Assembly (NCBI GenBank): GCA_021846605.1
Contig: JAJZWQ010000013.1
Span: 1-31,382 of the forward strand
DNA length: 31,382 bases
Source: Bacillota bacterium
Lineage (GTDB): Bacteria; Bacillota_E; RBS10-35; JAJYVN01
Direction of reading: 5' to 3'
Below, piece after piece: positions 2,534-31,382 of this stretch; the stretch's first letter is position 1, and every line of letters starts with the position of its first letter. The position numbers were made by a program, and so were the translations under genes. A model generated the notes under the pieces. The model was not told where the DNA came from, ran no database searches, and saw only the letters and a program-made list of their open reading frames with translations.

Positions 2534-2601
2534 GCGGACAAGGGCACCCCCGGCAGAAGAAGCCACGCGCTAAGGCGACCAGTGTCACAGGAGGTGGGTA
2601 C

Positions 2602-4823: not shown

Positions 4824-4844
4824 TTGTGGACGAAACCGTGCCTG

Positions 4845-5161: not shown

Positions 5162-5163
5162 CT

Positions 5164-5179
5164 ATGCCGACTGTGGCAT
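5164..5179. other. Small hairpin in the convergent intergenic region
   Basis: ATGCC and GGCAT (5164-5168 and 5175-5179) can pair around a 6-base loop, 30-45 bp beyond the stop of the beta-galactosidase gene. There is no T-run on either side, so a terminator role is weakly supported. Confidence 0.2.
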
Positions 5180-5208
5180 TATCCCGACCTCGCCGCCCGG
5201 AGCCTCGT

Positions 5209-7863: not shown

Positions 7864-8199
7864 ACCGCACCCTTCCCCCGGGGCCCGGCAACACCGCGGG
7901 CGGCCGCCGCGTACCCACGCCCCGCCGACAGAATTGCGGTCAGGCACGCCGCCTCCTGCAGCGCCGCGGCGCCAGCCGCCATTCCGGCCACGGGGAGACG
8001 GAGGGGGGATAGGGCCGGGGCGTGCCGGCTGACAAGCCGGGCCCCTGGCCCCTGCGGGGGACAGGGAGGGCGGGGCGCCCGGGCACCCCGCGGGTGGAAG
8101 CGGTGGAGGACCCCGTCCCCACGGGCGGCGGCACGTCGGCCACCGCCCCGCCGGGGGCGTGCGCCGGGTTCGCGCCAGCGCCCCCGCTGCTTTGGGGCG
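7864..8199. other. Intergenic gap between binding protein and beta-galactosidase, with hairpins
   Basis: This 336-bp stretch separates two same-strand genes. It holds two small GC-rich inverted repeats: CGCCCC/GGGGCG (8179-8184 and 8194-8199), directly after the stop of the binding-protein gene, and CCGGCT/AGCCGG (8025-8030 and 8035-8040) with a GACA loop. Neither has a U-run in the minus-strand transcript. They could attenuate read-through into, or protect, the upstream transcript. No gene is seen. Confidence 0.35.
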
Positions 8200-9501: not shown

Positions 9502-9556
9502 GACTCGTTCACTCCTTCGTCGCTTGCTGGGCCCTGCCAGCGGTGGTCAACCGCCC

Positions 9557-10384
9557 CTAACCGGTCAGCCCCCCCTCCAGGTCGCCGATGACGGCAGCCA
9601 TGATCTGGCGCCGCGCGGCGACGAAGAGGGCGACCAGGGGTACCACGGAGATCAGCACCGCCGACGCCATCCGGCGCCAGTCGGACTGGTAGGTCTGGCT
9701 GAAGTGGGCCAGGACGACCTCGATCGGCTGGATGGCGCGCGTGCTGGTCACGATCAGCGGCCACTGGAACTGGTTCCAGGTGGCGATGGCGACCAGCAGG
9801 GCCACCGCGTAGGTGATGCCCCGCGCCAGGGGGAAGGCGATGTACCAGAAGTAGCGGAACTCCCCGCAGCCGTCGATGCGGGCGGCGTCGCGGTAGTCCG
9901 CGGGCAGTGTGAGGAAGAACTGGCGGTACAGGAAAATCCCAAAGCTGTTGAACAGCAGCGGAAGCACCTCGGCCAGGTAGGTGTTCAGCAGGTGCAGGCT
10001 GTGCACGACCAGGTAGCGCGGCACCAGCAGCGCCTGCTCAGGCACCATGGCCCCCGCCAGCAGCAGCAGCATGGTGGCGTCGCGCCAGCGGAAGCGTCCC
10101 TCGGCCAGGGCATATCCCGCCAGCGCCGAGGTGATCACCGTGAACAGGATGGTGAAGGCGGTCATGCCGCCGGAGTTGGCCAGGTAACGCCACCAGGGGA
10201 AGGACACCCAGGCGGCGACCAGCGGCTGGAGGTCGAAGTGCGGCAGGAGGGTGGGCGGGATGCGGTAGACATGGCCGGGCAGGTTGGTGGCGGTGACCAC
10301 GATCCAGTACACCGGAAAGACGAAGAGCGCCGCGACCACCACCTGCACACCGACCTGCAGCCCCCTGATCCAGGCGCGCACCAA
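9557..10384 (-). CDS. Carbohydrate ABC transporter permease (MalG type)
   Basis: A 275-residue integral membrane protein with about six hydrophobic segments, beginning with VGVQVVVAALFVFPVYWIVV. It carries the permease EAA-like loop (YRDAARIDGCGEFRYFWYIAFPL), which contacts the ATPase subunit, and the NQFQWPLIV segment common in MalG/UgpE-type proteins. Start: TTG at 10384, 9 bases after AGGAGG; a GTG one codon later (10381) is equally possible. It forms a heterodimeric channel with the permease encoded just upstream, 16 bp away. Confidence 0.93.
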   Translation of the reverse strand: MVRAWIRGLQVGVQVVVAALFVFPVYWIVVTATNLPGHVYRIPPTLLPHFDLQPLVAAWVSFPWWRYLANSGGMTAFTILFTVITSALAGYALAEGRFRWRDATMLLLLAGAMVPEQALLVPRYLVVHSLHLLNTYLAEVLPLLFNSFGIFLYRQFFLTLPADYRDAARIDGCGEFRYFWYIAFPLARGITYAVALLVAIATWNQFQWPLIVTSTRAIQPIEVVLAHFSQTYQSDWRRMASAVLISVVPLVALFVAARRQIMAAVIGDLEGGLTG

Positions 10385-10400
10385 GGACCGCCCCCTCCTG

Positions 10401-11423
10401 TCAGCGGTAGAAGACCCAACGGCTGCTGACGACCTTCTGCACCAGCGTCCAGCCCATGATCAGCGCGAACAGGACGACGCTCATGGCGGCCGCCAGGCCG
10501 AAGAACTGGTACTTGAAGGCGGTGTAGTAGAGCAGGACGGCGTCGGTGGTGGTGCTGTAGGCGGGGCCGCCCGCGCCGCCGTGGGTGCCGCCGGTCATCA
10601 GGAAGATGTAGCCGAAGGACTGCATGTTGGCGATCGTGGACAGGACCGTCACGGCGAAGATGCTGGGAGACATCAGGGGCAGGATGACGCGGCGCAGGCG
10701 GGTCCAGGCACCGGCGCCGTCCACGGCCGCGGCCTCCAGCACCCCCTTGGGGATGCGGGCCAGGGCCGCGATCATGATCAGCACATACAGGCCGACGGAA
10801 TGCCAGATGGTGGTCAGCGACACCGCCGGCAGGGCCCAGGCTGTCGACTCCAGCCAGTTCGGGCCGGGTAGGCCCAGCCAGTGGAGCAGGGAGTTGGCCA
10901 GACCGAACTGCGGGTTGAAGATCCAGACCCAGATCAGCGACGTGGCGATGACGGGGGTGATGTGCGGGAGGAAGACCCCGGCCTGGAGCCAACCGGTGAC
11001 CCGGTTCACCGAGCGCGCCAGCACCAGGGCCAGCAGGATGGAAAGCACGACCGTGGGCGGAACGACCATCAGGGCGTAGAGGGCGGTCTTGCCGATGCTC
11101 CGCCAGTAGAGGGGTTGGGCGAACAGTTGCGCGTAGTTGTGCAGTCCCACCCAGTTGGAGGCGGTCAGGGTAAAGTTGAAGTGCAGCAGGCTCACCACAA
11201 ACAGGGAGATCGTGGGCCACCCGACCATCAGCGCAAAGGTCGCCAGGCTCGGCAACAGATACACCATCCACCACAGACGCCCCAGGCCGCGGAGACCCCG
11301 CCGGGCCTGGACGTGGGTCCCCGCCTCCTCCAGCGGGAGGGCGGCGCGGGTCGCGATCGACGACAGTCCCTTCACCTCCACGCGGCGTATGCGCGCGGTC
11401 ACCGTCGCCGAGTCTACGGACAC
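10401..11423 (-). CDS. Carbohydrate ABC transporter permease (MalF type)
   Basis: A 340-residue membrane protein of the MalF/UgpA group. An Arg-rich cytoplasmic N-terminus (about 55 residues) precedes the first membrane segment (LWWMVYLLPSLATFALMVGW). Five more segments follow, with the EAA loop (LEAAAVDGAGAWTRLRRVILPLMSP) and a NWVGLHNYAQLF segment typical for the group. It pairs with the MalG-type subunit to move sugar through the membrane. The assigned GTG start at 11423 lacks a strong Shine-Dalgarno sequence, so the true start could lie a little further inside. It is the first gene of the permease-permease-binding protein-beta-galactosidase set. Confidence 0.92.
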   Translation of the reverse strand: MSVDSATVTARIRRVEVKGLSSIATRAALPLEEAGTHVQARRGLRGLGRLWWMVYLLPSLATFALMVGWPTISLFVVSLLHFNFTLTASNWVGLHNYAQLFAQPLYWRSIGKTALYALMVVPPTVVLSILLALVLARSVNRVTGWLQAGVFLPHITPVIATSLIWVWIFNPQFGLANSLLHWLGLPGPNWLESTAWALPAVSLTTIWHSVGLYVLIMIAALARIPKGVLEAAAVDGAGAWTRLRRVILPLMSPSIFAVTVLSTIANMQSFGYIFLMTGGTHGGAGGPAYSTTTDAVLLYYTAFKYQFFGLAAAMSVVLFALIMGWTLVQKVVSSRWVFYR

Positions 11424-11638
11424 GACGGACGGGGCCGGTTGCGCCAGCGGGGAGATCGTGTGCAGGCACGGCGAACGTTCCGTGAAGATTGTGGGATGAG
11501 AGGGGCGCAGGCCGTGCGGCCCTACGCCTCATGACGCATGGGGGCGGGGCGCGAGGAACCCCATGTCGGATGGGCTGATTCTACGCACCGTGTGCGCGTT
11601 GGGGGTGTGCGGGGGGCACGGAGAGTCTGGCCGTCGGC

Positions 11639-12580
11639 TCAGGCGTCCAGGCGGTCGACAAGCGCGCGCGCCAGCCGCAGGTGCTCGGCAGGGATGTCGT
11701 CGGGAACCGAGCACCCGCCGGCCAGGATCAGGCGCCGGCCGCCCGTCTGGCCCACCGCATCCCGCATCTCCACCCGGAGCGCGGACTCGTCCCCGCGCAC
11801 GACCGGCCCCGCTTCGTCGATCCCGCCCATCACCACCCGGCCGGGCAGGGCACGCGCCACCTCATCCAGCGGGATGCCGGTCTGGCGGTCGCTCCAGGAG
11901 AACACCTGCACCGGGTAGTCGGCGGCCAGCCGCCAGCGCAACCCGCGGGGACCGTGCATGTGGGCGATGTTGCACCACCCTGGCGCACAGGCCTCCAGGA
12001 CCGCGAGGTCGAAGGGCCGGCCGAAGGCACCGTAGACCTCGTCACCGTTTAATAAGGCGTCGCCCTGCCCCGCGGTGGCGAAGTACACGCCATCGGCGCC
12101 GGACGCCAAGGCGGCCTGGCACAGGGCGGCCGAGTTCTCGGCAATGATCCGCAACCCGTGCAGCACCGCGTCGGGGTCGCTCCGCAAGAGCCCCAGAAGT
12201 GGTGCGGCGCCACCGGCAAAGCGCAGGGCGATGGCCAGCGGCGAGAAGACGGTCATCAGCACGACATGGCCCGGGGCGCCACGCCGCACCAAGCGGACCG
12301 CCTCGGGCATTCCGCCCAGGGACTCACCCGGCCGGGTCCCGAGCTGCGGCAGGGCCCGCCAGTCGGCGGGGGCGCCCAGCGGGAGCGGCGCCGGCTCCGG
12401 GTAGGGCAGGTCCGGCATGATCTTGCAGATGTCGAAGTCGAAGTCCTCCGCAAACGCCAGTGTCGCCGCCGCCAAGGCCTCTGGCGAGCCGGCGGGCCGG
12501 AAGTGGTGCCAGAGCACGAGCGGGGGCCGGTCGACGGGCTCCCCGGACAGCGCACGTCGAACGCGTTCCCCGTGGGTCAT
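11639..12580 (-). CDS. Uroporphyrinogen decarboxylase-family protein (UroD/MtaA-like)
   Basis: A 313-residue protein resembling the UroD/MtaA superfamily. The ATG at 12580 follows a GGGAG motif by 7 bases; the frame stays open far upstream, but that part looks non-coding. It begins MTHGERVRRALSGEPVDRPPLVLWHHF, close to family starts, and has DFDICKIMPDLPYP, the His-containing NIAHMHGP segment, and the SWSDRQTGIPLDEV ... VVMGGID segment near the C-terminus. True UroD makes coproporphyrinogen; MtaA-type relatives transfer methyl groups to thiols using cobalamin. No heme genes lie nearby, so heme synthesis is unlikely. Related proteins of unknown role are often found beside sugar-catabolism genes. 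It lies 215 bp upstream of the permease genes on the same strand and may belong to the same regulon. Confidence 0.82.
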   Translation of the reverse strand: MTHGERVRRALSGEPVDRPPLVLWHHFRPAGSPEALAAATLAFAEDFDFDICKIMPDLPYPEPAPLPLGAPADWRALPQLGTRPGESLGGMPEAVRLVRRGAPGHVVLMTVFSPLAIALRFAGGAAPLLGLLRSDPDAVLHGLRIIAENSAALCQAALASGADGVYFATAGQGDALLNGDEVYGAFGRPFDLAVLEACAPGWCNIAHMHGPRGLRWRLAADYPVQVFSWSDRQTGIPLDEVARALPGRVVMGGIDEAGPVVRGDESALRVEMRDAVGQTGGRRLILAGGCSVPDDIPAEHLRLARALVDRLDA

Positions 12581-12798: not shown

Positions 12799-14628
12799 CT
12801 AGCCGGGGATGGTGGAACTCCCGGTCCCCGACGACGTAGCCGTCGACGCGCCGCCCGTCCCGACACCTGCGGTGGCCCGGGCATATCGCCCGTCCTGGAA
12901 GAGCCAACCGGAGTCCGGTCCGTTGCCCTGGGGCACGAAGATCTCATAGGGGGTATCCGGGGCCGGCTGCTGGATGAGGGGTGGAGAGGTCGTCCCCACC
13001 CCCACCATCTGTCCGATGAGGGTGGCCTGGGTGCTCCCCAGGCGATACACGGATACGGCGGTCCCGGCGGGCGCCCCGGCGCGTTCGGGCGGCACGTTGG
13101 TCCAGAGGACGAGCGAGGTGCTGCCGTCGCCCGTGAGATCGCCACAGGCCACCGGCATCGTCCCCATGGCCAGTCCCGGCATGCTGATGCCCGTCAGGGT
13201 CGTGCCAGCCGGCGTGCGGACCTGCACGGTGGAGGTGCGGGCCTCAAAGGTGAACCCGTTGTTGCCCATCGGTTGCACCGGACCGACCGTCCAGGTCACG
13301 GTGTCGCCGCCACAGGTGAGCGAACCGTGTGCCGACGCGGACTGGGCGGGAGAGCCCGGGTGCAGGATCGTCGGGGTCTGAAAGTGCACGGACTGCTCGG
13401 CAAGGATCGCGGGGCCCGTGGAACTCGAGCCGACGGTGTACCGCAGGACCCGCACGATGGTGCCGTCGGCGCGCTCGTCGACGACGACCCAGTCCTGGCC
13501 GTCGGCTCGCCGCCAGGCATCGGCGATGCTGAAGGCCATGGTGGGTGCGGGCACCGTCGCGGCGGTACGGGCGCGCGCCGGGTGGAGCACGCGGCCGGCA
13601 TCCGCCCAGGCCTGGAGCAGCTGGCCCCGGACCAGCGCCCGCCAGAGCGTGCGCCAAGGACCCAGGACCGGGGCCGGGGCCGGCGGACGCAGCAGCGCGT
13701 TCTCGCGCCGCGCCACCAGCGCCTCGGCCGCAGATGGGGAAACGGGCGCGGATGCGGCGGCCGGCTGCTCCAGGCTGGCGTCGACCACGAGCCGCAGGGA
13801 GTCGAACAGCCCGGTACAGGTCACCAGTTGCAGGACAGCCGGCCCACCGTGCGGCGACAGCACCGAGCCGTCGGCGGGCTGGACGCTTTGCGCGCCGGTG
13901 ACCACGTAGGTGAAGGTGCTCTGCGGGGTCTGGAGGATCACCCTGTCGCCGGGCACGAGGCGATACAGGTTCTGGAAGACCGAGCCCCAGATGTTGACGT
14001 GGCCCAGGATCACCGCATTGCCGCGGGCGCCGGGCAGGGCGGAACCCGCCACATGCGCCGGCCCCCGTTGCAGTAGCCCATTCCAGGCCGACGAGTCCAG
14101 CGGCACGCCCTGCAGCACATAGGTGTCCACGCCGATGGCCGGGATGACCATGCGGGCCAGGGGCCGCCCGGGCTCCACCGCCGGGGGCGCGGCAGACGTG
14201 CCGCTGCCGCTCATGGATGTGCCGTTGGAAGCGGCGCCCCTCGCCAGGGTGGTCTCCGGCGGGTCGGTCGCGGCCGCGCCGCGCTCCTCCTGGGCGAAAC
14301 GCCGGGCCGCCGTCGCCTGGGCGACGGCGTTCCAGCCCGCAGACCACAGGGGGGTGGTGGCGAGGACCGTGCCCACGCACATGGCCGCCAGTCCCCCCGT
14401 CAGGCGCGCCGTTCCCCACCCCAGCCGGGCCGCGCGCGACGGCGGCGCCTGGTGGCGCGCATGCCGTCGTCCCTGTTTGCGGGCACGGCGCGATGGAATC
14501 GGGATCCTCCCCGTCGGGTTGTTCTCCGAACCGGCATCGGGCGCCGCGCCGGTCCGCCGCGCGTCGACAGGGGCCGCACTGCGGCCATCCCGCCCGGCGT
14601 CCTTCCCCGGTCGTACCCCCGTCGCCAC
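12799..14628 (-). CDS. Sortase with long C-terminal extension
   Basis: A 609-residue protein, much larger than common sortases (about 200-300). GTG start at 14628, preceded by AAGGAG with a 10-base spacer. Order: Arg-rich cytoplasmic tail (1-70), a single membrane anchor (about 75-95), a linker, then the sortase barrel (about 155-285). The catalytic residues are visible: His210 in ILGHVNIWGSVFQNL, Cys271 in LQLVTCTGLF, and Arg279 in SLRLVV. It should cleave a sorting signal and attach the protein to the cell wall or to another subunit. Beyond residue 290 come about 320 extracellular residues unusual for sortases: Pro/Ala-rich linker, a beta-rich region, the CGDLTGDGSTSLVLW segment resembling an FG-GAP/VCBS-like calcium loop, and a Gly/Ser/Thr-rich tail. 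A substrate gene (15042-15488) lies just upstream on the same strand and a second at 21892-22686. Confidence 0.88.
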   Translation of the reverse strand: MATGVRPGKDAGRDGRSAAPVDARRTGAAPDAGSENNPTGRIPIPSRRARKQGRRHARHQAPPSRAARLGWGTARLTGGLAAMCVGTVLATTPLWSAGWNAVAQATAARRFAQEERGAAATDPPETTLARGAASNGTSMSGSGTSAAPPAVEPGRPLARMVIPAIGVDTYVLQGVPLDSSAWNGLLQRGPAHVAGSALPGARGNAVILGHVNIWGSVFQNLYRLVPGDRVILQTPQSTFTYVVTGAQSVQPADGSVLSPHGGPAVLQLVTCTGLFDSLRLVVDASLEQPAAASAPVSPSAAEALVARRENALLRPPAPAPVLGPWRTLWRALVRGQLLQAWADAGRVLHPARARTAATVPAPTMAFSIADAWRRADGQDWVVVDERADGTIVRVLRYTVGSSSTGPAILAEQSVHFQTPTILHPGSPAQSASAHGSLTCGGDTVTWTVGPVQPMGNNGFTFEARTSTVQVRTPAGTTLTGISMPGLAMGTMPVACGDLTGDGSTSLVLWTNVPPERAGAPAGTAVSVYRLGSTQATLIGQMVGVGTTSPPLIQQPAPDTPYEIFVPQGNGPDSGWLFQDGRYARATAGVGTGGASTATSSGTGSSTIPG

Positions 14629-21891: not shown

Positions 21892-22686
21892 ATGGACATT
21901 CGGGGGTGGGATGGCGTGTCGAATGAACTTGGTCCCAGGCTGAGGCGGCTGTCTCGGAACGTGGCGACGGTGGGAGCAATCGTGGGCTTGGTGGGAGCGG
22001 CCTCGATGGCGTCGGCCGCCACCGCGAGCAACGTATCCTGTACGCTCTCAAGCACTCCGACGTGTACCGGGCTGACCATTGAGGCGCCGCATCAGGCGGA
22101 CAGCGACTTCACCAGCGGCACGGTCGGAGGGGAGAGCGCGGACGTCTTCAGCACGAACACGGCCGCGCCGACCAACCCGGTTTCGTATCTGTATTTCCAG
22201 GTGAGCAAGAGCTTTTTAGCCAGCAACCCGACGACGCTCTACCTCACCGTGGATTACTACGGCCAGGTCTCCAGCAACCCGACCTGCTCGAGCAAGACCC
22301 TGAACTGCGCGCTGATCGCCAACTATGACAGCACCACCAGCCTGGGCGCCTACGGACAGGTCGGTCCCTTGGAGGTCAACCAGGGCGCCTCGTGGCAGTC
22401 CGTGACGTGGAAACTGACCCAGTCCTCCTTCCATGAAGGGGAGAACAACGCGTCCGACTTCCGGCTCGGCGGCTCGCCGGGGGTCGCCGTCCACAGCGTC
22501 ACCCTGAGCCTGACGGCGCCGGCGGCCAGCTCGAGTTCGACCGCCTCCTCGACGACGTCCGCCAGCAGTTCCTCGTCCGTGCCGAAGACCGGCGGAAACC
22601 CCCTGGTCCCGGTCGCGGGGGGGGCCGCCCTGGTGGCGGGAGCGCTCATGCTGATGAATCGGCGCCGGCCGAAGCACGCCGACTGA
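21892..22686 (+). CDS. Cell-wall-anchored protein with sortase signal
   Basis: About 264 residues if the ATG at 21892 is used; the GTG at 21868 has its purine-rich stretch too close, so the start is uncertain. The signal peptide has a basic region (GPRLRRLSRN), a hydrophobic core (VATVGAIVGLVGAASMAS) and probable cleavage after ASA. The ectodomain (about 150 residues) is beta-rich with several Cys (SNVSCTL, TPTCTGL, NPTCSSKTLNCAL), suggesting disulfides. It ends in a Ser/Thr-rich stalk, then VPKTG (230-234), a hydrophobic segment and RRRPKHAD, the standard sortase sorting signal. It is presumably anchored by the sortase at 12799-14628. The ectodomain resembles no family I can name. Confidence 0.85.
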   Translation: MDIRGWDGVSNELGPRLRRLSRNVATVGAIVGLVGAASMASAATASNVSCTLSSTPTCTGLTIEAPHQADSDFTSGTVGGESADVFSTNTAAPTNPVSYLYFQVSKSFLASNPTTLYLTVDYYGQVSSNPTCSSKTLNCALIANYDSTTSLGAYGQVGPLEVNQGASWQSVTWKLTQSSFHEGENNASDFRLGGSPGVAVHSVTLSLTAPAASSSSTASSTTSASSSSSVPKTGGNPLVPVAGGAALVAGALMLMNRRRPKHAD

Positions 22687-22790: not shown

Positions 22791-23456
22791 TCAGGAGGAA
22801 GAGGACGAGGTGGAGGAAGTCGTGGAGGCCGCGGTCTTGGACGACGACGGCTCCGGTCCGGTGTGGATCGTCACCGAGCGCATGTATTCGTTGCTGACAG
22901 GCATGTGGTGGCTGCCGGTCACCGGGTTGGTCGTCACGGCCACCGCGGCGAGGCTCTGCGCCACAGAAAGGCCGCTGGTCACCTTGCCCAGTTCGGTGTA
23001 GTTCGGGGGGAGGCTGTTGCACTGGGAGCCCGTGCAGATGAAGAACTGGCTGCCGTTCGTGTTCGCGCCGGAGTTGGCCATGGCCACCACGCCCGGGGCG
23101 TAGGGCACGGTGGGCGGCAGTTCGTCGCCGAAGCGGTAGCCGGGACCACCGGTCCCGTTGTTGCTGGGATCCCCGGTCTGGACCATGAAGCCGCTGATGA
23201 CGCGGAAGAAGCGCAGGCCGTTGTAAAAGCCGTGATCAGCCAGGAACACGAAGTTGTTGACCGCAACCGGATCACGGCGGGCAAACAGGTCGAGCATGAT
23301 GGTACCCTTGCTCGTCTTGATCGTCGCCGTATAGGCCGTATTCGGTTTGAGCGTGATGGCGGGCGCCGCCGGCCACGAGAGCTGCGTCGTCTGCGCCCCG
23401 CACCCGGCCAGGATCAGCGCCACTCCAGCGAGCACCGGAACCGCCCAGCGCCGCAC
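22791..23456 (-). CDS. Cyclophilin-type peptidyl-prolyl cis-trans isomerase lipoprotein
   Basis: A 221-residue exported foldase that speeds proline isomerisation in proteins outside the membrane. The GTG at 23456 follows GGGGGGA with a 7-base spacer. The signal peptide ends in LILAGC (lipobox, Cys19). The cyclophilin domain shows FFRVISGFMVQTGDP with the catalytic Arg and the Phe/Gln pair, GGPGYRFGDE, and GSQFFICTG. The region after GPEPSSSK is an unusual Ser/Thr tail ending in five Ser. It follows the PfkB gene by 16 bp on the same strand, so it may be read from the sugar operon, although its role is general protein folding at the surface. Confidence 0.95.
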   Translation of the reverse strand: MRRWAVPVLAGVALILAGCGAQTTQLSWPAAPAITLKPNTAYTATIKTSKGTIMLDLFARRDPVAVNNFVFLADHGFYNGLRFFRVISGFMVQTGDPSNNGTGGPGYRFGDELPPTVPYAPGVVAMANSGANTNGSQFFICTGSQCNSLPPNYTELGKVTSGLSVAQSLAAVAVTTNPVTGSHHMPVSNEYMRSVTIHTGPEPSSSKTAASTTSSTSSSSS

Positions 23457-23472: not shown

Positions 23473-24444
23473 TCAGGAGTCCCGCACGCCCGACCCGGCC
23501 ACGAAGCCCGACACCTCGGCCGCGGACGGCATGGACCCCATCGCCCCGGGCCGCAGCGTGGAAAGGGCGGCCGCGGCGTTACACCAGGCGAGGATCCGGG
23601 CCATCTCAGCCGGCGCGGGCGCGTCCGCCGCGCGGCGCTCCGCCCATTGTGCCAACAGGTTACCGGAAAAGCAGTCCCCAGCGCCGATCGCATCGACAGC
23701 ATCCACCTGGAAGCCGGGATGGTGCACCTGCGCGTCCTCGGTGACCCACAGGGACCCCCGCTCCCCCAACGTCACCACGACGGCCTGAGGGCCATCGGCC
23801 AGCAGGCGGCGCGCGCGGGCGGCGGGATCTCCGCCCGGGCCGGCGACCAGCTCCAATTCGGTCTCGTTGCACTTGACGACCCGGCTGCGGCGGATCGCGG
23901 CCCGCAGGACGGGGAGCGCGGTATCGACGCCCTCCCACAGCGCCGGCCGCCAGTTCACGTCGAAAAGCGTCCAGGCGCCGCGGGCGGACGCGGCATCCAG
24001 CGCGGCCAGGGTCGCCTCGCGCGCGCCCGGCGCGGAGAGCGAGACCCCCCCACAGCCGAAGGCCGTCACCTCGGAGAAGGCGTCGGACGTCAGGTCCTCG
24101 ACGGACAGCGCCGCGTCGGCCCCCCGGTTGAACTGGAAGCCCAAGTCCCCGCGCACGGCGGGCATCACGAAGGCCAGCGTGGTGGGCAGCCGCGGATGCT
24201 CACGCAACCGGACCGCGTCCACGCCCGCCCCCTCCAGGGTCCTGCGCAACAGCCGGCCAAAGGCATCGGCCCCCACGCACCCCAAAAAGCCGGTGCGGGC
24301 GCCGGCACGCGCCGCGGCCACGGCCGCGTTCGCCGGGGCGCCGCCGGGTTGCGGCCGGAAGGCGCGGGCCTCCTCCAGGCTCTGGCCACCCTCGCCCAGA
24401 AAATCCACCAGGATCTCGCCGACCAGCAGCACTCTCCCGCCCAC
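23473..24444 (-). CDS. PfkB-family carbohydrate kinase
   Basis: A 323-residue ribokinase/fructokinase-type enzyme that phosphorylates a sugar with ATP. The GTG at 24444 starts VGGRVLLVGEILVDF; nearby in-frame GTGs at 24456 and upstream are alternatives. The first family signature is GGAPANAAVAAARAGARTGFLG, and the second, with the catalytic Asp, is VDAIGAGDCFSGNLLA. VKCNETELELV and VVTLGERGSLWV are also typical. It lies 20 bp after the unrecognised gene in the catabolic operon. Its likely task is phosphorylating the free sugar or sugar acid released upstream in the pathway, for example a fructose-, ketodeoxygluconate- or deoxygluconate-like compound. The sequence alone does not choose between these. 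Confidence 0.94.
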   Translation of the reverse strand: MGGRVLLVGEILVDFLGEGGQSLEEARAFRPQPGGAPANAAVAAARAGARTGFLGCVGADAFGRLLRRTLEGAGVDAVRLREHPRLPTTLAFVMPAVRGDLGFQFNRGADAALSVEDLTSDAFSEVTAFGCGGVSLSAPGAREATLAALDAASARGAWTLFDVNWRPALWEGVDTALPVLRAAIRRSRVVKCNETELELVAGPGGDPAARARRLLADGPQAVVVTLGERGSLWVTEDAQVHHPGFQVDAVDAIGAGDCFSGNLLAQWAERRAADAPAPAEMARILAWCNAAAALSTLRPGAMGSMPSAAEVSGFVAGSGVRDS

Positions 24445-24464
24445 GCCAGTCCCCACCCTTCCGA

Positions 24465-25193
24465 TCAACACCCCTCCAGGAACAGCGGCACCCCCACCAC
24501 CAAATCGACCTGGCGCGCACCGTCGCTCCAGGTTCCGCGCCCTCCCTCGGCCGCCAGGACCGCGCGTCCCCCTCCGCGCAGTGCGATGCCCGCCAGCGTG
24601 CGCCGTCCGGGGGCGGGCGCGCCGGGCGGCAGGCAGGCCTCCAGTCCGCCCCGGACCCGCCGGAGCCCGAACCAGTCCGTCCACACGCCCGCCAGCCACG
24701 CCGGTGCGTCGCCGCCGCCACCGGGGGCCGGGGTGGGGCTCGCGGCGGCGCGCTCGGCCCACCGGGCCGCGTAGAGGTAACTGTCTGTGGGGTCCAGCGC
24801 GCGGAAGAGGTGGGCCAGAAGGGCGGCGGCCTCGGCGTCGGCCGCCGGGTCGCGGCCCCAGGCGGCCACCACCGCGTCGTCGGCCGCCGCGATCAGGCGG
24901 ATGTTGCCGGCAAAGGCACCCAGAAAGGCGACCCCGCCGCCTGCCTCCAGGTGGGCGGCGGCCAGGCGGAGGGCCGCCAGCCCGTGCCCCCCGGCGACCG
25001 ACCGCCGGCAGGCCGCCTCCATGCCCTCGGGCAGAGCGAGGGCGGCCGCCGGTCCCAGGCGGGACAGGGGATCGGGATCTCCCGCCCGCCACGCGGCCGC
25101 GATCTGCTCGGCGGCCTCGACGTACGCGCGCTCGGCCGCGGGTAGGGCCGGCGCGGTCAACTCCATCAGCACGGGGTCCATGGCCGCCGTCAT
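24465..25193 (-). CDS. Unrecognised protein in the hydrolase/sugar operon
   Basis: A 242-residue protein I do not recognise. The ATG at 25193 overlaps the stop of the phosphodiesterase gene (ATGA), so it is almost certainly translated and coupled. Residues 1-150 look helical and Ala-rich, with segments such as ERAYVEAAEQIAAAWRAG, ALRLAAAHLEAGGGVAFLGAFAGN and PTDSYLYAARWAERAAA. After a Pro/Gly linker, residues 170-242 look beta-rich (WTDWFGLRRVRGGLEACLPPG ... GARQVDLVVGVPLFLEG). The second part is faintly like the C-terminal beta-sandwich of some glycoside hydrolases and phosphorylases; this is only a hint. No signal peptide or membrane segment is seen. Confidence 0.8.
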   Translation of the reverse strand: MTAAMDPVLMELTAPALPAAERAYVEAAEQIAAAWRAGDPDPLSRLGPAAALALPEGMEAACRRSVAGGHGLAALRLAAAHLEAGGGVAFLGAFAGNIRLIAAADDAVVAAWGRDPAADAEAAALLAHLFRALDPTDSYLYAARWAERAAASPTPAPGGGGDAPAWLAGVWTDWFGLRRVRGGLEACLPPGAPAPGRRTLAGIALRGGGRAVLAAEGGRGTWSDGARQVDLVVGVPLFLEGC

Positions 25194-26623
25194 GCGGGGG
25201 CGTCCCTCCACGTCCGGGGGTCGACAGCGCGGCCCGCGATGCCCGGCGGGGCCTCCAGGCCCAGGTGCGCGCAGATGGTGGGCGCGATATCCACGAGCCG
25301 CAGGCCGTCGACCTGGCGGCGGGGGCCCCGGCCGGTGCGCAGCGCCCCGCCGTCGATGGCGGTGAAGCACCCGTACTGCGCATGGTTGGCGCCGTCCGGG
25401 CCGGTGTCGTTGTGGCGGGTATACACCTGCTCGGGATCCTCGGGCAGGGAGGCCAGCGCCCGCCAGTAGAGGTCCCCTGGATAGAGGAGCAGGTCCGGGG
25501 CGAAGCCCTGCACCTCCCGGTAGATGCGGTCGGGGAAGAAGACCCGGTTGCGCGCGTCGGGGCTGCCCCAGGGGAGTTGTTCGGCCTCCAGGCGGGCGGC
25601 GAGTTCCTCGCGCAGCGCCCGCACGTCCTCCGGGGGCACCGTCCCCCGCGGCTCCCGCCCGGCGACGTTCAGGAAGATGCGCCCGTAATACCCGCCATCC
25701 CCCCAGGCGCGCGTGTGCGCCCAGTCCACGTCCTCGGGCCGCAGGCGCCCAGGGCCGGTGCCGGGGTGCAGATGCAGGTAGCCGTGGCGCCGCAGCCAGG
25801 CGTTGAGGTGAAAGCCGCCGTCCATGCGCCGGGCGCCGTGGTCCGAGACGCACAGGAGGAGCGTGCCCTCGTCCACAAAGCGCAGAAGTTCGCCGATATG
25901 GCCGTCCACCATGCGATAGTACTCGCGGATGGCGCCGGCGTAAGGGCTTCCCGGCTCGTGCAGGACGTGCTCGGGGTCCATCAGGTGCCAGAAGGCGTGA
26001 TGGGCCCGGTCGGTACCGATCTCCACCATGGCGAAGAGATCCGGGTCGCGCGTTTCCAGGAGGTGCGCGGCCAGCTTCCAACGCTGGGCGGTCATCGTGT
26101 GGATCTCCCGCAGCAACGGGGCGCGGGCCTCGGTGCGGGCGTTCTCCACATCGAACCGGTAGTCGCCGACCAGCGAGAGCACCTCCTGCCGCAGCGCGGC
26201 CGGGTACGCGAAGTCGCTGTCCGACCCAGGGGTCATGAAGCAGCCCACGAACTCCCCCCGCACCGGACGGGGCGGGTACCCGGGGGGCACCCCGATGATG
26301 GTGCTGTGCAGGCCGGCGGCGCTGGCCAGATCCCACACGGCCGGGGCCGTCGACGCCGGGATCCCGTCCGAGAAGGTCAACTGCAGGGGGTCGTAGTTCC
26401 AGCCGCTGCGGTTGCGGAAACCGTAGACGCCCAACTGCCCCGGGTCCCGGCCGGTAAAGGCGCACATCCACGCCGGGCAGGTGATCGGGGGGTAGATGCT
26501 CTCCAGGCGGCCCCAGGCCCCACCGGCAATGCGCTGGAGGTTGGGCATGTCGTCCCGGTAGCGGTCGAAGGCCAGGCTGGGCTCCAGGCAGTCCAGCCCC
26601 AGCACGATGACGCGCGAACGCAC
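25190..26623 (-). CDS. Type I phosphodiesterase / nucleotide pyrophosphatase-like hydrolase
   Basis: A 477-residue member of the alkaline phosphatase superfamily. An ATG at 26629 has AGGAGG only 1 base away; the GTG at 26623 has an ideal 7-base spacer and is preferred. VIVLGLDCLEPS holds the first metal-binding Asp. PPITCPAWMCAFTG puts Thr48 at the nucleophile position, as in nucleotide pyrophosphatase/phosphodiesterases. GTDRAHHAFW and SDHGARRMDGGFHLNAWL carry the remaining metal ligands. NHAQYGCFTAIDG and LVDIAPTICAHLG are common in the group. It should cleave a phosphodiester or phosphomonoester of a small molecule. There is no signal peptide. It follows the sulfatase-like gene by 29 bp and overlaps the unrecognised gene. 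Confidence 0.9.
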   Translation of the reverse strand: MRSRVIVLGLDCLEPSLAFDRYRDDMPNLQRIAGGAWGRLESIYPPITCPAWMCAFTGRDPGQLGVYGFRNRSGWNYDPLQLTFSDGIPASTAPAVWDLASAAGLHSTIIGVPPGYPPRPVRGEFVGCFMTPGSDSDFAYPAALRQEVLSLVGDYRFDVENARTEARAPLLREIHTMTAQRWKLAAHLLETRDPDLFAMVEIGTDRAHHAFWHLMDPEHVLHEPGSPYAGAIREYYRMVDGHIGELLRFVDEGTLLLCVSDHGARRMDGGFHLNAWLRRHGYLHLHPGTGPGRLRPEDVDWAHTRAWGDGGYYGRIFLNVAGREPRGTVPPEDVRALREELAARLEAEQLPWGSPDARNRVFFPDRIYREVQGFAPDLLLYPGDLYWRALASLPEDPEQVYTRHNDTGPDGANHAQYGCFTAIDGGALRTGRGPRRQVDGLRLVDIAPTICAHLGLEAPPGIAGRAVDPRTWRDAPA

Positions 26624-26652
26624 GGCCATCCCTCCTCGTGCAGTATCGCAGA

Positions 26653-28008
26653 TCAGTATCCCAGATTGGCCAGGCGCCGGGAGACACGCTCCCGATCAGC
26701 GGCCCCGGGCCCGGCCGCTTGCGGGGCGGGCGCCGAAGGCGGTCCGATGCGGCGGGAGGCCACCGGCTGGACGCGGAGGGGGTCTGGCCGGCCGGTCTGC
26801 GCGACGCGGCGGGCCACGTGCGCCTCCATCTCCCCCAGGAGCGCGGCGGCCCGCGCCGGCTCCACCGCCGCCAGGTTGGCGGTCTCGCCGGGGTCCCGGT
26901 GCAGGTCGTAGAGCTCCAGGTCCGGGCCCCCGTGGAAGTCCGGCTCCAGGGCGGAGATGAGCTTCCATCCCTCGTCCAGCCAGAAGCGCTTGCGCTGCCA
27001 GGTGCACTCTGTCCCGTAGACCGGCCCCAGCGGCGACAGGCCCCCGCGCCAGGCATCCGCAAGGTCGCGGCCGGGCAGTCCGGCGGGTGCGGCGACGCCC
27101 ATCGCGCCCAGGATGGTGGGCGCCACGTCGAGCAGGGTGACCGGCTCGGGCACGACCACGCCCACCGGCACGCGGCCGGGCGCCCACAGCGTCAGGGGGA
27201 CATGGAGGTTCTCCTGATACAGCCCGTGGTGGTCGAACCACACCCCGTGCTCCCCGAGCAGTTCGCCGTGATCGGCCAGCACGACGACCAGGGTGTCCGC
27301 AAGACAGCCGGCGTCCGCCATCCGGGTCCAGAGCCGCTCCACCCCCTGGTCCAGGGTGCGCACACACGCGGCGTACTGGGCCCGCGGGAAGGCGGGGTCC
27401 GTCACCCCCGGCATCCAACCCGCGAAGTATTCGAGGAAGGGCCGGAACGCCCAGACCGCATCCATCCCGTGGGCGTCGGCCCGCCGCTCGTCGCCGTCGT
27501 AATACAGGCGGGCAAAGGGCGGCGGGGGGCAGTAGGGGGTGTGGGGATCCCAGAAATGGAAGAAGGCGAAGAAGGGTTGGCCGCGGCGCGCGGCGGCGCC
27601 CAGTGCGGGTACGACCGGCCCCGCCGCCGCCAGCACGGCGTCCGCCTTGCGCCAGTATCCGTCCGCCGAGGGCTCCAGCGTGAAGCGCGCATACTGCTCA
27701 AAGCCCCGGGTGAACCACCGGCCGAGGCTGTCCACGGCGGCGGTGAACACGCCGGCCTCTTTCAGCCGCTGCGGCAGCCAGGGGAGGTCGGAGGGGGGTT
27801 CGGCCCCGCCCCCGTGGGCCACGACGCCGTGGGAGAACGCGTCCTGCCCGGAAAAGAGCGTGGTGTGCGCCGGGTGCGTGGGGATGTGCGGCGACAGGGC
27901 GGCGGTAAAACGCGTCCCCTGCGCCGCCAACCGCTCCATCCATGGGGAGAAGCGGCCGTTCCAATGGTCGGCCCGCAGCGTATCGCACAGGATGACGATC
28001 ACGTTCAA
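26653..28008 (-). CDS. Sulfatase-like hydrolase A, Thr at the nucleophile position
   Basis: A 451-residue protein with the sulfatase fold. The TTG at 28008 follows GGGGGA by 7 bases; a GTG at 28002 is possible. NVIVILCDTLRADH at the N-terminus and VVVLADHGELLGEHGVWFDHHGLYQENLHVPLTLW provide the metal-binding Asp/His residues. Genuine sulfatases carry C/S-x-P-S-R, whose Cys or Ser becomes formylglycine. Here the aligned segment is THPAH (residues 44-48): Thr for the Cys and His for the Arg. It therefore cannot form formylglycine in the usual way and more likely hydrolyses a phosphate ester or diester. The C-terminus (LELYDLHRDPGETANLAAVEP) is typical of the family. There is no signal peptide. 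It is a paralogue of the neighbouring gene at 28039-29379. Confidence 0.92.
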   Translation of the reverse strand: MNVIVILCDTLRADHWNGRFSPWMERLAAQGTRFTAALSPHIPTHPAHTTLFSGQDAFSHGVVAHGGGAEPPSDLPWLPQRLKEAGVFTAAVDSLGRWFTRGFEQYARFTLEPSADGYWRKADAVLAAAGPVVPALGAAARRGQPFFAFFHFWDPHTPYCPPPPFARLYYDGDERRADAHGMDAVWAFRPFLEYFAGWMPGVTDPAFPRAQYAACVRTLDQGVERLWTRMADAGCLADTLVVVLADHGELLGEHGVWFDHHGLYQENLHVPLTLWAPGRVPVGVVVPEPVTLLDVAPTILGAMGVAAPAGLPGRDLADAWRGGLSPLGPVYGTECTWQRKRFWLDEGWKLISALEPDFHGGPDLELYDLHRDPGETANLAAVEPARAAALLGEMEAHVARRVAQTGRPDPLRVQPVASRRIGPPSAPAPQAAGPGAADRERVSRRLANLGY

Positions 28009-28038
28009 CGCCGGATCCCCCGCTTCCCCCCGCGCTCC

Positions 28039-29379
28039 CTACTGTCCCCCGGGTGCCTCGGGCTTGCTGGCGGGGCCCGGTGTCTTGGTCTCGCCGATAT
28101 GGCGCATGGTGACCCCCTGCGTCCGGATCGGGGCCAGACGCCCGGTGGCCTCCTCGCGGCGCCGCAGGTGGGCCAACAGGCGTTGCTGCAGGTCCGCCAC
28201 GACCTCCGGTCGTTCCGCGGCGAGGTTGTACTGTTCCCGCGGATCGCTTGGCAGATGGTAGAGCTCCACTTCGGGCCGCTGGTGGAAGTCCGGCTCCAGC
28301 GCCCAGATCAGCTTGTATTCGCGTGTGCGCCACCCGTGTTTCCGCATCCAGCTGGACTCGCTCAGGTACAGGCCGTCCTCCCAGGTGCCGGTGCCGGGTG
28401 GGGTCTCCCCCCGCATCAGGGGCCACAGGCTCCGCCCAGCCAGCCCCAGCGCCGCGGGATCGACGCCGCCCGCCTCCAGGACGGTGGGCGCGATGTCGTA
28501 ATGGGAGACGGGCGCGTCCAGGGTGCGCGCCGGCACCTTGCCCGGCGCCCACAGAATGAGGGGCACGTGGATGTTCGTCTCATACAGGCCGTGGTGGTCA
28601 AACCACATCTGGTGCTCGTCCATCTCCTCGCCGTGGTCGGCGAAGAAGACGACCAGCGTGTCGCGGTCCAGTCCGCGTGCGGTCAGCATGGTCCACATGT
28701 GCTCCAGGCAGGTGTCCATGTAGGCGATCTCGGCGTCGTACTGGCTTTTGGGGAACTCGATGTCCGTGACGCCAGACATCCACTGGGAGAAATAGTCGCG
28801 GAAGGGCGCGAACGCCCACAGCGCCTCCATCGAGCGTTTGGCGGGGTCCTTGGGGTCCCCGTCATGAAACATCCCCCAGAAGGGGGCCGGCGGCAGGTAC
28901 GGGGTGTGGGCGTCCCAGTAGTGCAGGAAGCAGAAGAAGGGCTTGTCCTGGGCGGCGATCGCGGAGAACACGGTGTCCACGGCGCGATTGACGCCCTCCG
29001 CCTTCGGCCAGCGGCCCTGGGCGTCGGTCCCCCACTCGTACGATTGGTAGAGGTCGAAGCCGCGCGAGAACCAGCGACCCAGGTTGTCCGCCGCGGCGGT
29101 GAAGTACCCGGCGGCCCGCAGACGCTCGGCCAGCGTGGGGAGCGCCTGATCCAGTTCCACAGGCCCGCCGTGGCTGACGATCTGGTGGTCGAACACGTCG
29201 CGCCCGGTGAACACCGTGGTGTGCGCCGGGTGGGTCGGGATGTGCGGCGCGATGCAGGTGCGGAACAGGCTGCCGCCGGCCGCCACCCGGTCCAGGTGCG
29301 GCGAGGTGAGCCGGGGATAGCCGTACGCGCTCAGATGGTCGGCGCGCAGGGTGTCCAAGCTGATCAGCACCACGTTCAC
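28039..29379 (-). CDS. Sulfatase-like hydrolase B, Thr at the nucleophile position
   Basis: A 446-residue paralogue of the downstream gene. The GTG at 29379 follows GGAGGGG by 8 bases and overlaps the stop of the oxidoreductase gene (GTGA). NVVLISLDTLRADHLSAYGY and VVFFADHGEEMDEHQMWF supply metal ligands. APHIPTHPAHTTVFTG again has Thr (Thr49) where sulfatases carry the formylglycine Cys, and His for Arg. The C-terminus (VELYHLPSDPREQYNLAAERPE) is family-typical. Paralogues A and B share the segments around THPAH, the D-N/S-LGRWF region and DHHGLY, which suggests tandem duplication followed by divergence, perhaps for two related substrates. There is no export signal, so it should be cytoplasmic. 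Confidence 0.93.
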   Translation of the reverse strand: MNVVLISLDTLRADHLSAYGYPRLTSPHLDRVAAGGSLFRTCIAPHIPTHPAHTTVFTGRDVFDHQIVSHGGPVELDQALPTLAERLRAAGYFTAAADNLGRWFSRGFDLYQSYEWGTDAQGRWPKAEGVNRAVDTVFSAIAAQDKPFFCFLHYWDAHTPYLPPAPFWGMFHDGDPKDPAKRSMEALWAFAPFRDYFSQWMSGVTDIEFPKSQYDAEIAYMDTCLEHMWTMLTARGLDRDTLVVFFADHGEEMDEHQMWFDHHGLYETNIHVPLILWAPGKVPARTLDAPVSHYDIAPTVLEAGGVDPAALGLAGRSLWPLMRGETPPGTGTWEDGLYLSESSWMRKHGWRTREYKLIWALEPDFHQRPEVELYHLPSDPREQYNLAAERPEVVADLQQRLLAHLRRREEATGRLAPIRTQGVTMRHIGETKTPGPASKPEAPGGQ

Positions 29380-30431
29380 GACCTGATCCCCTCCGGTACT
29401 GCCAGACTGATGCGCCGGCCCTCTGCGGCCGCGGTGTAGGCCCCGAGCACCATCGCCACCGCCTGCCGGCCGTCCCAGGCGGTCGCCGTGGGCTCCCCGC
29501 GCGCCAGGGCGTCGAGGAACCCGCGCGCCACAGCGGCGATGCGGTCCCCGTGGCCGGGCGGGATGGCCAGGCCCTGGTCCTGCCAGCCGCGTTCCGGCTC
29601 GGCCCGGCGATACAGCTTGAGCAGGACCGCCCCCTGCGGACGCACCGCCCCCGTGCTCACCAGGTCGTCGTGGTTCTGGATCAGGACCCCCTGGTCCCCA
29701 TATACCTCGCAGGTATTCTCTCCCATCAGGGTGGTCGAGGAGTTGGCCAACTCGGCCAACACCCCGCTCTGGAAGCGGTAGACGGCCAGACCCGTGTCCT
29801 CGATGGGCGCCAACTGCGCCCCGACCTCGGCAACCACCGAGACGGGCTCGCCGAACACCCACCGCAGGAAGTCGGTGGCGTGGACCGCGTCGTCGAAAAA
29901 CATGCCCCGGTTCTGGGCGGGATCGGCGTGCCAGCGCGCCGCCCCGCTGGTAAAGGCCGCGTCGAACAGGACCGGGATGCAGTGGCGCCGGCGGGCCCAG
30001 CCGATCCGCCCCAGCGCACCCCCCTGCACCAGTTCGCGCAGGCGCCGGTTGGCGGGGTCGTACCGCATCTGGAAGGCCGTCTCGAAGTATGTCTCGGACC
30101 GCCGCACCGCCTCGACGATCCGGTCGCATTCCTCCAGCGTCAGGGCCAGGGGTTTCTGGCAGAGGACCGCCCGCCCCGCGGCGACCGCCTCCAGGCAGAG
30201 GGCCGCGTGCTGGACGGTCTCGGCCGTGACGACGACGGCGTCCGAGTCCCGCAGGACGTCGGCGGGCGCGGCGGCCACCTCCATGCCGTAGGTGGCCGCG
30301 AACTCACGCGCGCGCTCGGGATCGCGGTCGTAGACCCGCCCCAACACGGCATCGGCGAACCCTCGGAACCGCTGGGCGTACGCCCGGCCGTGCCCGTGCG
30401 CGACACCGAGATAGCCGATCCGCACGCTCAT
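29376..30431 (-). CDS. Gfo/Idh/MocA-family oxidoreductase
   Basis: A 351-residue NAD(P)-dependent sugar or polyol dehydrogenase. The ATG at 30431 overlaps the stop of the isomerase gene (ATGA). The Rossmann part begins VRIGYLGVAHGHGRAYAQRF, which departs from the usual GxGxxG; a His replaces one Gly region. The family motif appears as CQKPLALTLEECDRI, with Gln instead of Glu before Lys-Pro. Further on, RYDPANRRLRELVQGGALG and DDAVHATDFLRWVFGEP (with the His and Asp expected in the substrate site) match the family. It differs clearly from the oxidoreductase at 3696-4823. Position and overlap show it works in the same pathway as the isomerase and the sulfatase-like hydrolases. Confidence 0.93.
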   Translation of the reverse strand: MSVRIGYLGVAHGHGRAYAQRFRGFADAVLGRVYDRDPERAREFAATYGMEVAAAPADVLRDSDAVVVTAETVQHAALCLEAVAAGRAVLCQKPLALTLEECDRIVEAVRRSETYFETAFQMRYDPANRRLRELVQGGALGRIGWARRRHCIPVLFDAAFTSGAARWHADPAQNRGMFFDDAVHATDFLRWVFGEPVSVVAEVGAQLAPIEDTGLAVYRFQSGVLAELANSSTTLMGENTCEVYGDQGVLIQNHDDLVSTGAVRPQGAVLLKLYRRAEPERGWQDQGLAIPPGHGDRIAAVARGFLDALARGEPTATAWDGRQAVAMVLGAYTAAAEGRRISLAVPEGIRS

Positions 30432-31237
30432 TGGCCCAGTTCCCGCAGGATCCGCGTCAGGTACCCCCAGCTGCCGGCCCCAATCGCCATCTGGGCCACC
30501 GGGTCCAGGCCGGCGGCGCCGATGATCTCCAGGTCCAGGTAGGCGCTGTATCCGCCGTCGGCCAGTGCCCGCACCACCGCCGGCAGGTTCACCAGGCCGC
30601 GGCCAGCGGTCTGCAGTTCGGGCGGGCCGATGCGGGTGTCCGGGGAGGAGTAGTCGCGGATGTGCACGTGGGCCAGGTGCGGGGCCAGAGCGCGCGCCGA
30701 CGCCGCAGGGTCCTCGCCGACCCGCTGGAGGTGCGTCGGGTCGTAGTTGAGGCGCAGGGCCGGCGCATCCACCTGGCGCATCAGGGACAGCGCGGTGTCC
30801 GTGCTATACACCGCGGCGCCGACGTGCGGCTTGCACGCCCAGACGACCCCGGACTCGGCCGCCTGCCGGGCCACCATCCGGGCCAACGGCAGGAAGGCCT
30901 CCAGGGAATCCGGCGTGGAGGTGCCGGCCGACCCCGTGGTCACCACGGGGATGCCCAGTTCGCCGCACAGGGCGAACACCCGGTAGACGCGCTCCCGCGC
31001 CGCCTCTTCGAAGAGATTGGTGGCCGCCTCCACGGCCGCCACCTCCAGCCCGGCGGCGTGGGCCGCCTCGACGGCGGCCCGGCTGGTCGCCGGGTCCTCC
31101 GGGGCCAGGTGCAGGGCCGACCCGGGGAGGGAGGCCAACTCGACCCCCCCGAAGCCCGCCAGAGCCACCCGGCGCACCGCATCCTCGACGCTGGAGCCGG
31201 CAAAGAGCACCGTGTTGCAACCCAACCGCATCGCCAT
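30428..31237 (-). CDS. Sugar phosphate isomerase/epimerase-like TIM-barrel protein
   Basis: About 269 residues from the ATG at 31237, which follows GAGGAG with a 10-base spacer; an ATG at 31255, directly after the upstream stop, would add six residues. It belongs to the xylose isomerase-like / AP endonuclease 2 barrel family. Metal- and substrate-binding acidic and His residues are visible in GFGGVELASLPGS, VWACKPHVGAAVYST, RLNYDPTHLQRVGED, HLAHVHIRDYSS and AYLDLEIIGAAG. Members isomerise or epimerise sugars or keto-inositols. It overlaps the oxidoreductase gene by 4 bp; such dehydrogenase-isomerase pairs are common in inositol and rare-sugar catabolism. Confidence 0.92.
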   Translation of the reverse strand: MAMRLGCNTVLFAGSSVEDAVRRVALAGFGGVELASLPGSALHLAPEDPATSRAAVEAAHAAGLEVAAVEAATNLFEEAARERVYRVFALCGELGIPVVTTGSAGTSTPDSLEAFLPLARMVARQAAESGVVWACKPHVGAAVYSTDTALSLMRQVDAPALRLNYDPTHLQRVGEDPAASARALAPHLAHVHIRDYSSPDTRIGPPELQTAGRGLVNLPAVVRALADGGYSAYLDLEIIGAAGLDPVAQMAIGAGSWGYLTRILRELGQ

Positions 31238-31255
31238 CGCGCTCACGCTCCTCAT

Positions 31256-31382
31256 CTACTCCGGAAGCAGTTCGCTCAGTTCCACGATCCGCCGCTGGTT
31301 GAAGGAGATGATCGCCGCCTCGACCACCGCCAGCGCCTTCAGCCCCTCCTCACCCGACCCGCTGACCGGACCGCCCGCGGAC
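31256..31382 (-). CDS. C-terminal end of a Gfo/Idh/MocA-type oxidoreductase (partial, runs off the window)
   Basis: Only the last 41 codons are present. They end at a TAG (31256-31258), and the gene continues beyond the right edge. The translation contains SGEEGLKALAVVEAAIISFNQ followed by RRIVELSELLP, which matches the usual C-terminus of Gfo/Idh/MocA dehydrogenases, where GlxAlxvveAa precedes a final VxL strand. It would be the first visible gene of the operon and the third oxidoreductase of this family in the window. Confidence 0.7.
   Translation of the reverse strand, partial: SAGGPVSGSGEEGLKALAVVEAAIISFNQRRIVELSELLPE

Follow-up and report, generated by a model that had tools for sequence, protein, structure and literature searches.

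Organization of the operon

The DNA analysed here is a stretch of 31,382 nucleotides (the window; contig JAJZWQ010000013.1) from a Bacillota bacterium, and its minus strand carries, from 31382 down to 23473, eight neighbouring and co-directional genes in the order GfoB(end)-TIM-Gfo-SulfA-SulfB-PDE-UNK-PfkB (Table 1). An initial annotation, made from the sequence alone, had described three hydrolases with threonine (Thr) as nucleophile together with sugar dehydrogenases, an isomerase, an unrecognised protein and a kinase, and Pfam searches and the translations bear out both the families and their order. The genes overlap by 4 bp (TIM/Gfo, Gfo/SulfA, PDE/UNK) or lie within 30 bp of each other (SulfA-SulfB 30 bp, SulfB-PDE 23 bp, UNK-PfkB 20 bp), which agrees with the overlapping or nearly abutting arrangement first described. 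The operon is real, and from the tight, co-directional packing we infer a single transcript.

Table 1. Genes of the operon and the gene downstream of it
Gene	Product	Position	Strand	Basis
GfoB	Gfo/Idh/MocA dehydrogenase, C-terminal 41 aa only, cut by window end	31256..31382	-	translation; tblastn to relatives
TIM	TIM barrel, xylose-isomerase-like, PF01261	30428..31255	-	Pfam, E 1.7e-25
Gfo	complete Gfo/Idh/MocA dehydrogenase	29376..30431	-	PF01408/PF22725/PF02894
SulfA	Thr-type PF00884 'sulfatase-like' hydrolase, GTG start	28039..29379	-	PF00884, E 3.4e-45; T49 at formylglycine position
SulfB	second Thr-type PF00884 protein	26653..28008	-	PF00884, E 7e-32; IPTHPAH motif as in SulfA
PDE	PF01663 type I phosphodiesterase/nucleotide pyrophosphatase, NPP fold	25190..26629	-	Pfam; predicted structure
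UNK	orphan protein without family	24465..25193	-	homologues P0002 and L107:14140-14868
PfkB	PfkB-family sugar kinase, last operon gene	23473..24444	-	PF00294, E 4.2e-54; PDB 1tyy and fructokinases
	cyclophilin-type isomerase, downstream of operon	22791-23423

Several of the program-listed open reading frames (ORFs) are over-long at the 5' end, and better starts lie at 29379 (GTG) for SulfA, 25193 (ATG) for UNK and about 24444 (GTG) for PfkB. The GfoB stop codon TAG abuts the longest TIM ORF, and the spacing between the two genes is 0, 9 or 18 bp, depending on whether TIM starts at 31255, 31246 or 31237. The 41-aa end of GfoB has no Pfam match on its own, and the inference of a second Gfo/Idh/MocA gene from this short end proved right: in tblastn it matches the GfoB termini of relatives (73% over 37 aa in L001, 77% over 39 aa in L003; loci and genomes from our searches are numbered L and G), and a full-length homologue is encoded at L107:6830-7825. 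The operon proteins begin at their first strand, with no leader recognised by eye, which gives the set a cytoplasmic look.

The three Thr-type hydrolases

In an alignment of 20 rows of the SulfA/SulfB family, T49 of SulfA was invariant, the motif T-x-P-x-[HYF] occurred in all 20 rows and the formylglycine motif C/S-x-P-x-R in none; T50 of PDE was likewise invariant in 26 of 26 rows, so that the Thr first placed at the nucleophile position is confirmed in both families. A DH metal motif accompanies this conserved Thr. SulfA and SulfB are 48% identical in the alignment. Sulfatases and phosphonate monoester hydrolases of PF00884 use a formylglycine derived from Cys, whereas SulfA and SulfB have Thr there and His in place of the motif Arg. 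Because Thr replaces the formylglycine Cys, SulfA and SulfB are not classical sulfatases, and a classical sulfatase operon was dropped as an explanation; nor does SulfA, with Thr aligned at that position, have the formylglycine nucleophile of a phosphonate monoester hydrolase. The best PDB matches of SulfA were, in order, 4upi and 4upl (named sulfatase family protein), several sulfatases, and then the chains named phosphonate monoester hydrolase, 4upk (E 1.6e-20) and 2w8s (E 4.3e-20). The Thr-type 'sulfatase' family is large, with 5363 of 7999 scored candidates matching, and the label sulfatase is probably wrong for it.

PDE has PF01663 as its sole Pfam family, and its family too is large, with 3081 of 8000 scored candidates matching. 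Its structure model shows a confident nucleotide pyrophosphatase/phosphodiesterase (NPP) fold against the VIA-align list, a match of fold and not of function that leaves room for families absent from that list. NPP phosphodiesterases combine a Thr nucleophile with two-metal ligands in the order D, T, D, H, D, H, H. PDE fits this order, as judged from the alignment and not from a residue-by-residue superposition, with D13, T50, H211, D263, H264 and H416 invariant and D207 conserved in at least 90% of rows. A single-sequence search found no relative of PDE in PDB and a profile search weak ones only, and PDE differs from the NPP/ENPP enzymes XacNPP and ENPP4-7 in its identity of 14-18% and in having no leader. 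By its modelled fold and residue order PDE is thus an NPP-type protein, for which diesterase or pyrophosphatase activity is predicted.

The dehydrogenase, isomerase and kinase genes

A close described parallel to the GfoB-TIM-Gfo part of the operon is the levoglucosan pathway, a Gfo, PF01261, Gfo set in which LgdA, LgdB1 and LgdC carry out an oxidation at C3, an elimination and a reduction, respectively (PMC10066097). Each has a pair of Gfo/Idh/MocA dehydrogenases and one PF01261 protein of ~270 aa, and the two could share an oxidise-eliminate-reduce logic (PMC10066097; PMC7676230), and they differ in that the available part of the levoglucosan report describes no esterases or kinase (PMC10066097). 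The complete Gfo-PF01261-Gfo cassette was found in L105 and L107, the window showing the GfoB end only. Against the levoglucosan dehydrogenase model NF052479 (cut-off 650), Gfo scored 54.2 bits and the GfoB proteins of L107 and L105 scored 70.6 and 62.3 bits; being so far below the cut-off, they led us to drop a levoglucosan operon proper.

Inositol catabolism offered a second comparison, since Gfo, TIM and PfkB have IolG, IolE and IolC at or near the top of their NCBIfam matches. Gfo scored best with IolG (113.9 bits, cut-off 355), as did GfoB (131.1 bits in L107, 122.3 bits in L105), and PfkB with IolC_N (188 bits, cut-off 300), while TIM scored 30.6 bits with hydroxypyruvate isomerase and 29.8 bits with IolE (cut-off 290). 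The operon differs from an inositol operon in that all these scores are under the cut-offs and that it contains no IolB or IolD. IolB was over its cut-off in four of six genomes of the order, elsewhere than in the operon; by eye, it lies near Gfo, IolE-like and IolD-like genes in G009 and is without iol-like neighbours in G001 and G003. The operon's PfkB is the best IolC_N match in G001, another PfkB outscores it in G003 and G009, and no PfkB exceeds the IolC cut-off in the six genomes. A plain inositol operon was dropped because of these operon scores and the lack of a PfkB above that cut-off.

UNK has no Pfam match over the cut-off and no NCBIfam match; a CAF17 C-terminal match (E 0.027, below cut-off) was taken as chance. 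Its homologues are one other protein, P0002 (among 7998 scored candidates), and the product of L107:14140-14868, its predicted structure (mean predicted local distance difference test score 57.1) was too poor for a fold search, and by eye its end may resemble the C-terminal part of some glycoside hydrolases. As UNK was found in only one of 13 genomes of the order (G011), it is dispensable, and its candidacy as the key enzyme was dropped.

Conservation of the operon

A genome scan ranked three Bacillota metagenome-assembled genomes (MAGs) at the top, and 13 genomes in the order of the first were then searched. SulfA-type genes (E up to 1e-40) and PDE (E up to 1e-60) occur in the same six genomes, and the other seven lack both. 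Presence in six genomes is not the same as an intact operon in six, because G003 and G010 have their SulfA-type matches outside the operon's contig, as paralogues of 47-49% identity, and the operon copy of G002 is SulfB; close SulfA proteins (71-74% identity) occur only in G001, G009 and G011. As far as the contigs reach, gene order is kept in these three: GfoB-TIM-Gfo-SulfA-SulfB-PDE-PfkB in G001 (L105), Gfo-SulfA-SulfB-PDE-PfkB in G009 (L106), where the contig ends upstream, and GfoB-TIM-Gfo-SulfA-SulfB-PDE-UNK in G011 (L107), where it ends after UNK. It is kept in part in three more, with a shortened Gfo-SulfB-PDE in G002, a GfoB remnant followed by PDE-PfkB in G003 (L003:9546-12486), and the end of PDE followed by PfkB in G010. 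The conserved co-occurrence that the initial annotation had proposed to look for is therefore present, and a loss of gene order in relatives, which it had named as grounds for refutation, was looked for and did not refute it. By eye, the downstream site with cyclophilin, HAD and TrpS genes is common in part to the window, G003 and G009, and the shrunken operon of G003 seemingly occupies the same chromosomal site. A second group of Thr-type PF00884 genes was seen in the same taxonomic order (L109-L114), several of them beside TIM or Gfo genes.

Outside the order, searches by SulfA similarity gave 38 places in 37 of 251 Armatimonadota genomes (E up to 1e-135), 6 places in 5 of 201 Chloroflexota genomes (E up to 1e-110) and 9 places in a separately selected set of five Armatimonadota genomes, all of which had matches (E up to 1e-90). 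From these places 32 neighbourhoods, some cut by contig ends, were picked by SulfA similarity alone (20 of the 38, 5 of the 6 in Chloroflexota and 7 of the 9). A Gfo or TIM homologue lies within 2 kb of the SulfA-family gene in 12 of the 32 loci, and on the same strand at less than 500 bp in 10; such matches numbered 15 in 120.6 kb near the SulfA-family genes (0.124/kb) vs 8 in 282.8 kb far from them (0.028/kb). The arrangements include SulfA-GfoB-GfoB-TIM (L131, L132), GfoB-TIM-SulfA (L134) and Gfo-SulfA (L137), and at a single Armatimonadota locus (L138) SulfA and PDE are 9 bp apart. The gene set is thus more than a chance grouping: it recurs in relatives, and gene pairs from it recur in other phyla.

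The PDE family and sulfate activation

The best 80 of at least 552 PDE-family loci, kept by PDE similarity alone, were examined by tblastn for ATP sulfurylase and adenosine 5'-phosphosulfate (APS) kinase. One or both lie within 1.5 kb of the PDE relative in 26 of the 80 loci, APS kinase in 25 of these and ATP sulfurylase in 17. There were 43 matches in 224.4 kb near the PDE relatives vs 3 in 593.9 kb beyond 4 kb; 32 of the 43 near matches are within 200 bp and 42 are on the same strand. A Pfam check at L010 (L010:8797-11982), the sole linked locus so verified, gave PF01747 at 335.1 bits and PF01583 at 203.9 bits. Among the linked loci are L008, L010, L013, L026, L028, L037 and L057, several with further PF01663 paralogues, and by record titles the 26 span eight phyla: Chloroflexi, Thermoactinomycetes (Bacillota), Methylomirabilota, TA06, Zixibacteriota, Latescibacterota, Verrucomicrobia and Omnitrophota. 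The linked APS kinase-PDE pair of Thermoactinomyces (L026) sits in a rhamnose/glycosyltransferase cluster, and L026, L028 and L030 hold glycosyltransferase, dTDP-rhamnose, sugar-transferase or UDP-sugar-dehydrogenase genes. L010 and L028 each carry an ATP sulfurylase-PDE-APS kinase operon, and in L028 (8722-20374) a single tandem run unites ATP sulfurylase and APS kinase with six PF01663-type homologues (tblastn).

Searches by tblastn detected neither ATP sulfurylase nor APS kinase in the window, L001-L003 or L105-L108, and the ATP sulfurylase genes of G001-G003 are on other contigs. Because the operon loci lack such a match, the link to sulfate activation belongs to the PDE family at large and not to the operon of the window. 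A quick tree built from 91 PDE rows, weakly resolved at its base, places the window clade (8 rows, support 100) on a long stem and scatters the linked rows over the rest. Sulfotransferases were sought in 17 genomes (G014-G030) that hold 17 of the 26 linked loci: PF13469 matched in five and PF00685 in five, one of these below cut-off. Ten of the 17 had neither, which is suggestive only, as most are MAGs and the search covered these two families and not other sulfotransferase families, CysH or CysQ.

Two other arrangements were seen around PDE relatives. In Poribacteria (L015:4283-11401 and similar loci), a cassette runs Gfo, UxuA-like TIM, GNAT/FemAB, formylglycine-type sulfatase, PhyH and PDE, with the CVPAR sulfatase motif in 14 loci. 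In one Actinobacteria record and one Thermoleophilia record (L048:10001-19202 and L072:1546-8166), a gene for a PF00884-family protein comes after PDE together with a set of E1 alpha, E1 beta and lipoyl-domain E2-like genes, and L048 also holds a cupin.

Surroundings of the operon in the window

A separate sugar-uptake and sugar-use cluster lies at 1301-12580, with two solute-binding proteins, a LacI-type ligand-binding protein, another Gfo/Idh/MocA gene, a GH35 beta-galactosidase, two ABC permeases and a URO-D-family protein. A sortase-domain protein is encoded at 12799-14382, and 22006-22686 encodes a small secreted-type protein whose match to an LPXTG anchor is weak (E 0.0061, below cut-off).

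Discussion

In this study, we found that the operon is a new combination of known enzyme kinds, uncharacterised as far as the literature was searched; in titles and abstract openings, by which absence is not proven, no paper was found on this operon or on an alkaline phosphatase (AP)-superfamily protein beside ATP sulfurylase. Considering the above results, we tentatively suggest, with the chances somewhat short of even, that the operon serves the cytoplasmic catabolism of a sugar or cyclitol decorated with phosphate or sulfate esters, a type of substrate that we infer. This was the most economical explanation because a diesterase and two monoester-type hydrolases would precede a Gfo-PF01261-Gfo cassette, with a sugar kinase after it. 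PDE, with its NPP fold and Thr nucleophile, would open a diester or remove a nucleotide-like or head-group ester, and SulfA and SulfB may then take off the remaining ester groups, most likely phosphate, by way of a covalent Thr intermediate. GfoB, TIM and Gfo could act on the freed ring as an oxidise, eliminate-or-isomerise and reduce cassette in the manner of LgdA-LgdB1-LgdC, and PfkB would phosphorylate the product into central metabolism. Only the logic of the levoglucosan pathway is borrowed, because no scanned operon enzyme passes a levoglucosan or inositol cut-off.

Several observations weigh against such a catabolic role. No scanned operon member reaches a substrate-specific or equivalog NCBIfam cut-off, and no transporter, aldolase or downstream enzyme was seen within the operon; with UNK present in one genome of 13, the 'complete cytoplasmic route' of the initial annotation is supported in its cytoplasmic look but not in its completeness. 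The set is not obligatory, as a GfoB remnant, PDE and PfkB are all that is left of it in G003, and SulfB stands without SulfA in G002. Twenty of the 32 SulfA-family loci have no Gfo or TIM gene within 2 kb, and by eye one SulfA-family gene (L142) lies among apparent housekeeping genes. True sulfatases stand ahead of the phosphonate monoester hydrolase chains among the PDB matches of SulfA, and the ties of the PDE family outside the window clade to sulfate activation and, at several loci, to genes for glycan synthesis point to a biosynthetic use there.

Those ties, with 26 of 80 loci linked and glycan genes at L026, L028 and L030, speak for an alternative in which the three Thr enzymes help to make a sulfated or phosphorylated glycan, as transferases or in an editing role, and the dehydrogenase and isomerase genes shape the sugar to be decorated; Thr-type AP enzymes, including phosphoethanolamine transferases, are known transferases. 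We regard this as unlikely for the operon itself, where tblastn found no sulfate-activation genes, no glycosyltransferase adjoins by eye and a PfkB kinase for free sugars fits poorly. The catabolism of an inositol phosphodiester such as glycerophosphoinositol or di-inositol phosphate, with PDE cutting, SulfA and SulfB dephosphorylating and Gfo, TIM and PfkB acting like IolG, IolE and IolC, would account for the leading IolG and IolC_N scores, the second place of IolE for TIM, and the presence of IolB in four of six genomes with the iol-like cluster of G009; it is rather improbable given scores well below the cut-offs, the better IolC_N kinases elsewhere in G003 and G009, and IolB genes that lie elsewhere, in G001 and G003 without iol-like neighbours. 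Equally improbable is that adjacent genes with separate substrates share only co-transcription: a relative's operon can lack UNK, SulfA, SulfB, TIM or the greater part of GfoB, but the SulfA-Gfo and SulfA-TIM links, and once SulfA-PDE, recur in other phyla. Least probable is the removal of sulfate from a sulfated sugar by SulfA and SulfB without formylglycine, in view of the absence of C/S-x-P-x-R from all 20 rows, even though Sulfatase is the closest Pfam family, true sulfatases account for several of the better PDB matches, and relatives have formylglycine-type sulfatases next to Thr-type ones or Gfo/TIM genes (the CVPAR motif in L130; L111 and L116 by eye).

A more speculative proposal, which we consider a long shot, concerns the PDE family as a whole. 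It could be a new NPP-fold class that handles sulfuryl groups, 3'-phosphoadenosine 5'-phosphate (PAP) or 3'-phosphoadenosine 5'-phosphosulfate (PAPS), either as a PAPS-dependent sulfotransferase acting through Thr-O-sulfate or as a dedicated PAP phosphatase, which accompanies ATP sulfurylase and APS kinase across many phyla and was re-used in the window clade, with two Thr-type PF00884 partners, to strip sugar esters in an undescribed catabolic route. PDE is not a canonical PAPS sulfotransferase by domain, as Pfam finds PF01663 and no sulfotransferase domain in it.

Where names are given in the source records, the Thr-type PF00884 and PF01663 families carry generic ones such as arylsulfatase and AlkP superfamily phosphohydrolase. 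The conserved operon provides a delimited group of enzymes whose order of steps can be tested. Furthermore, the linkage of ATP sulfurylase, PDE and APS kinase offers a direct test of whether an enzyme of the alkaline phosphatase superfamily belongs to sulfate activation or transfer.

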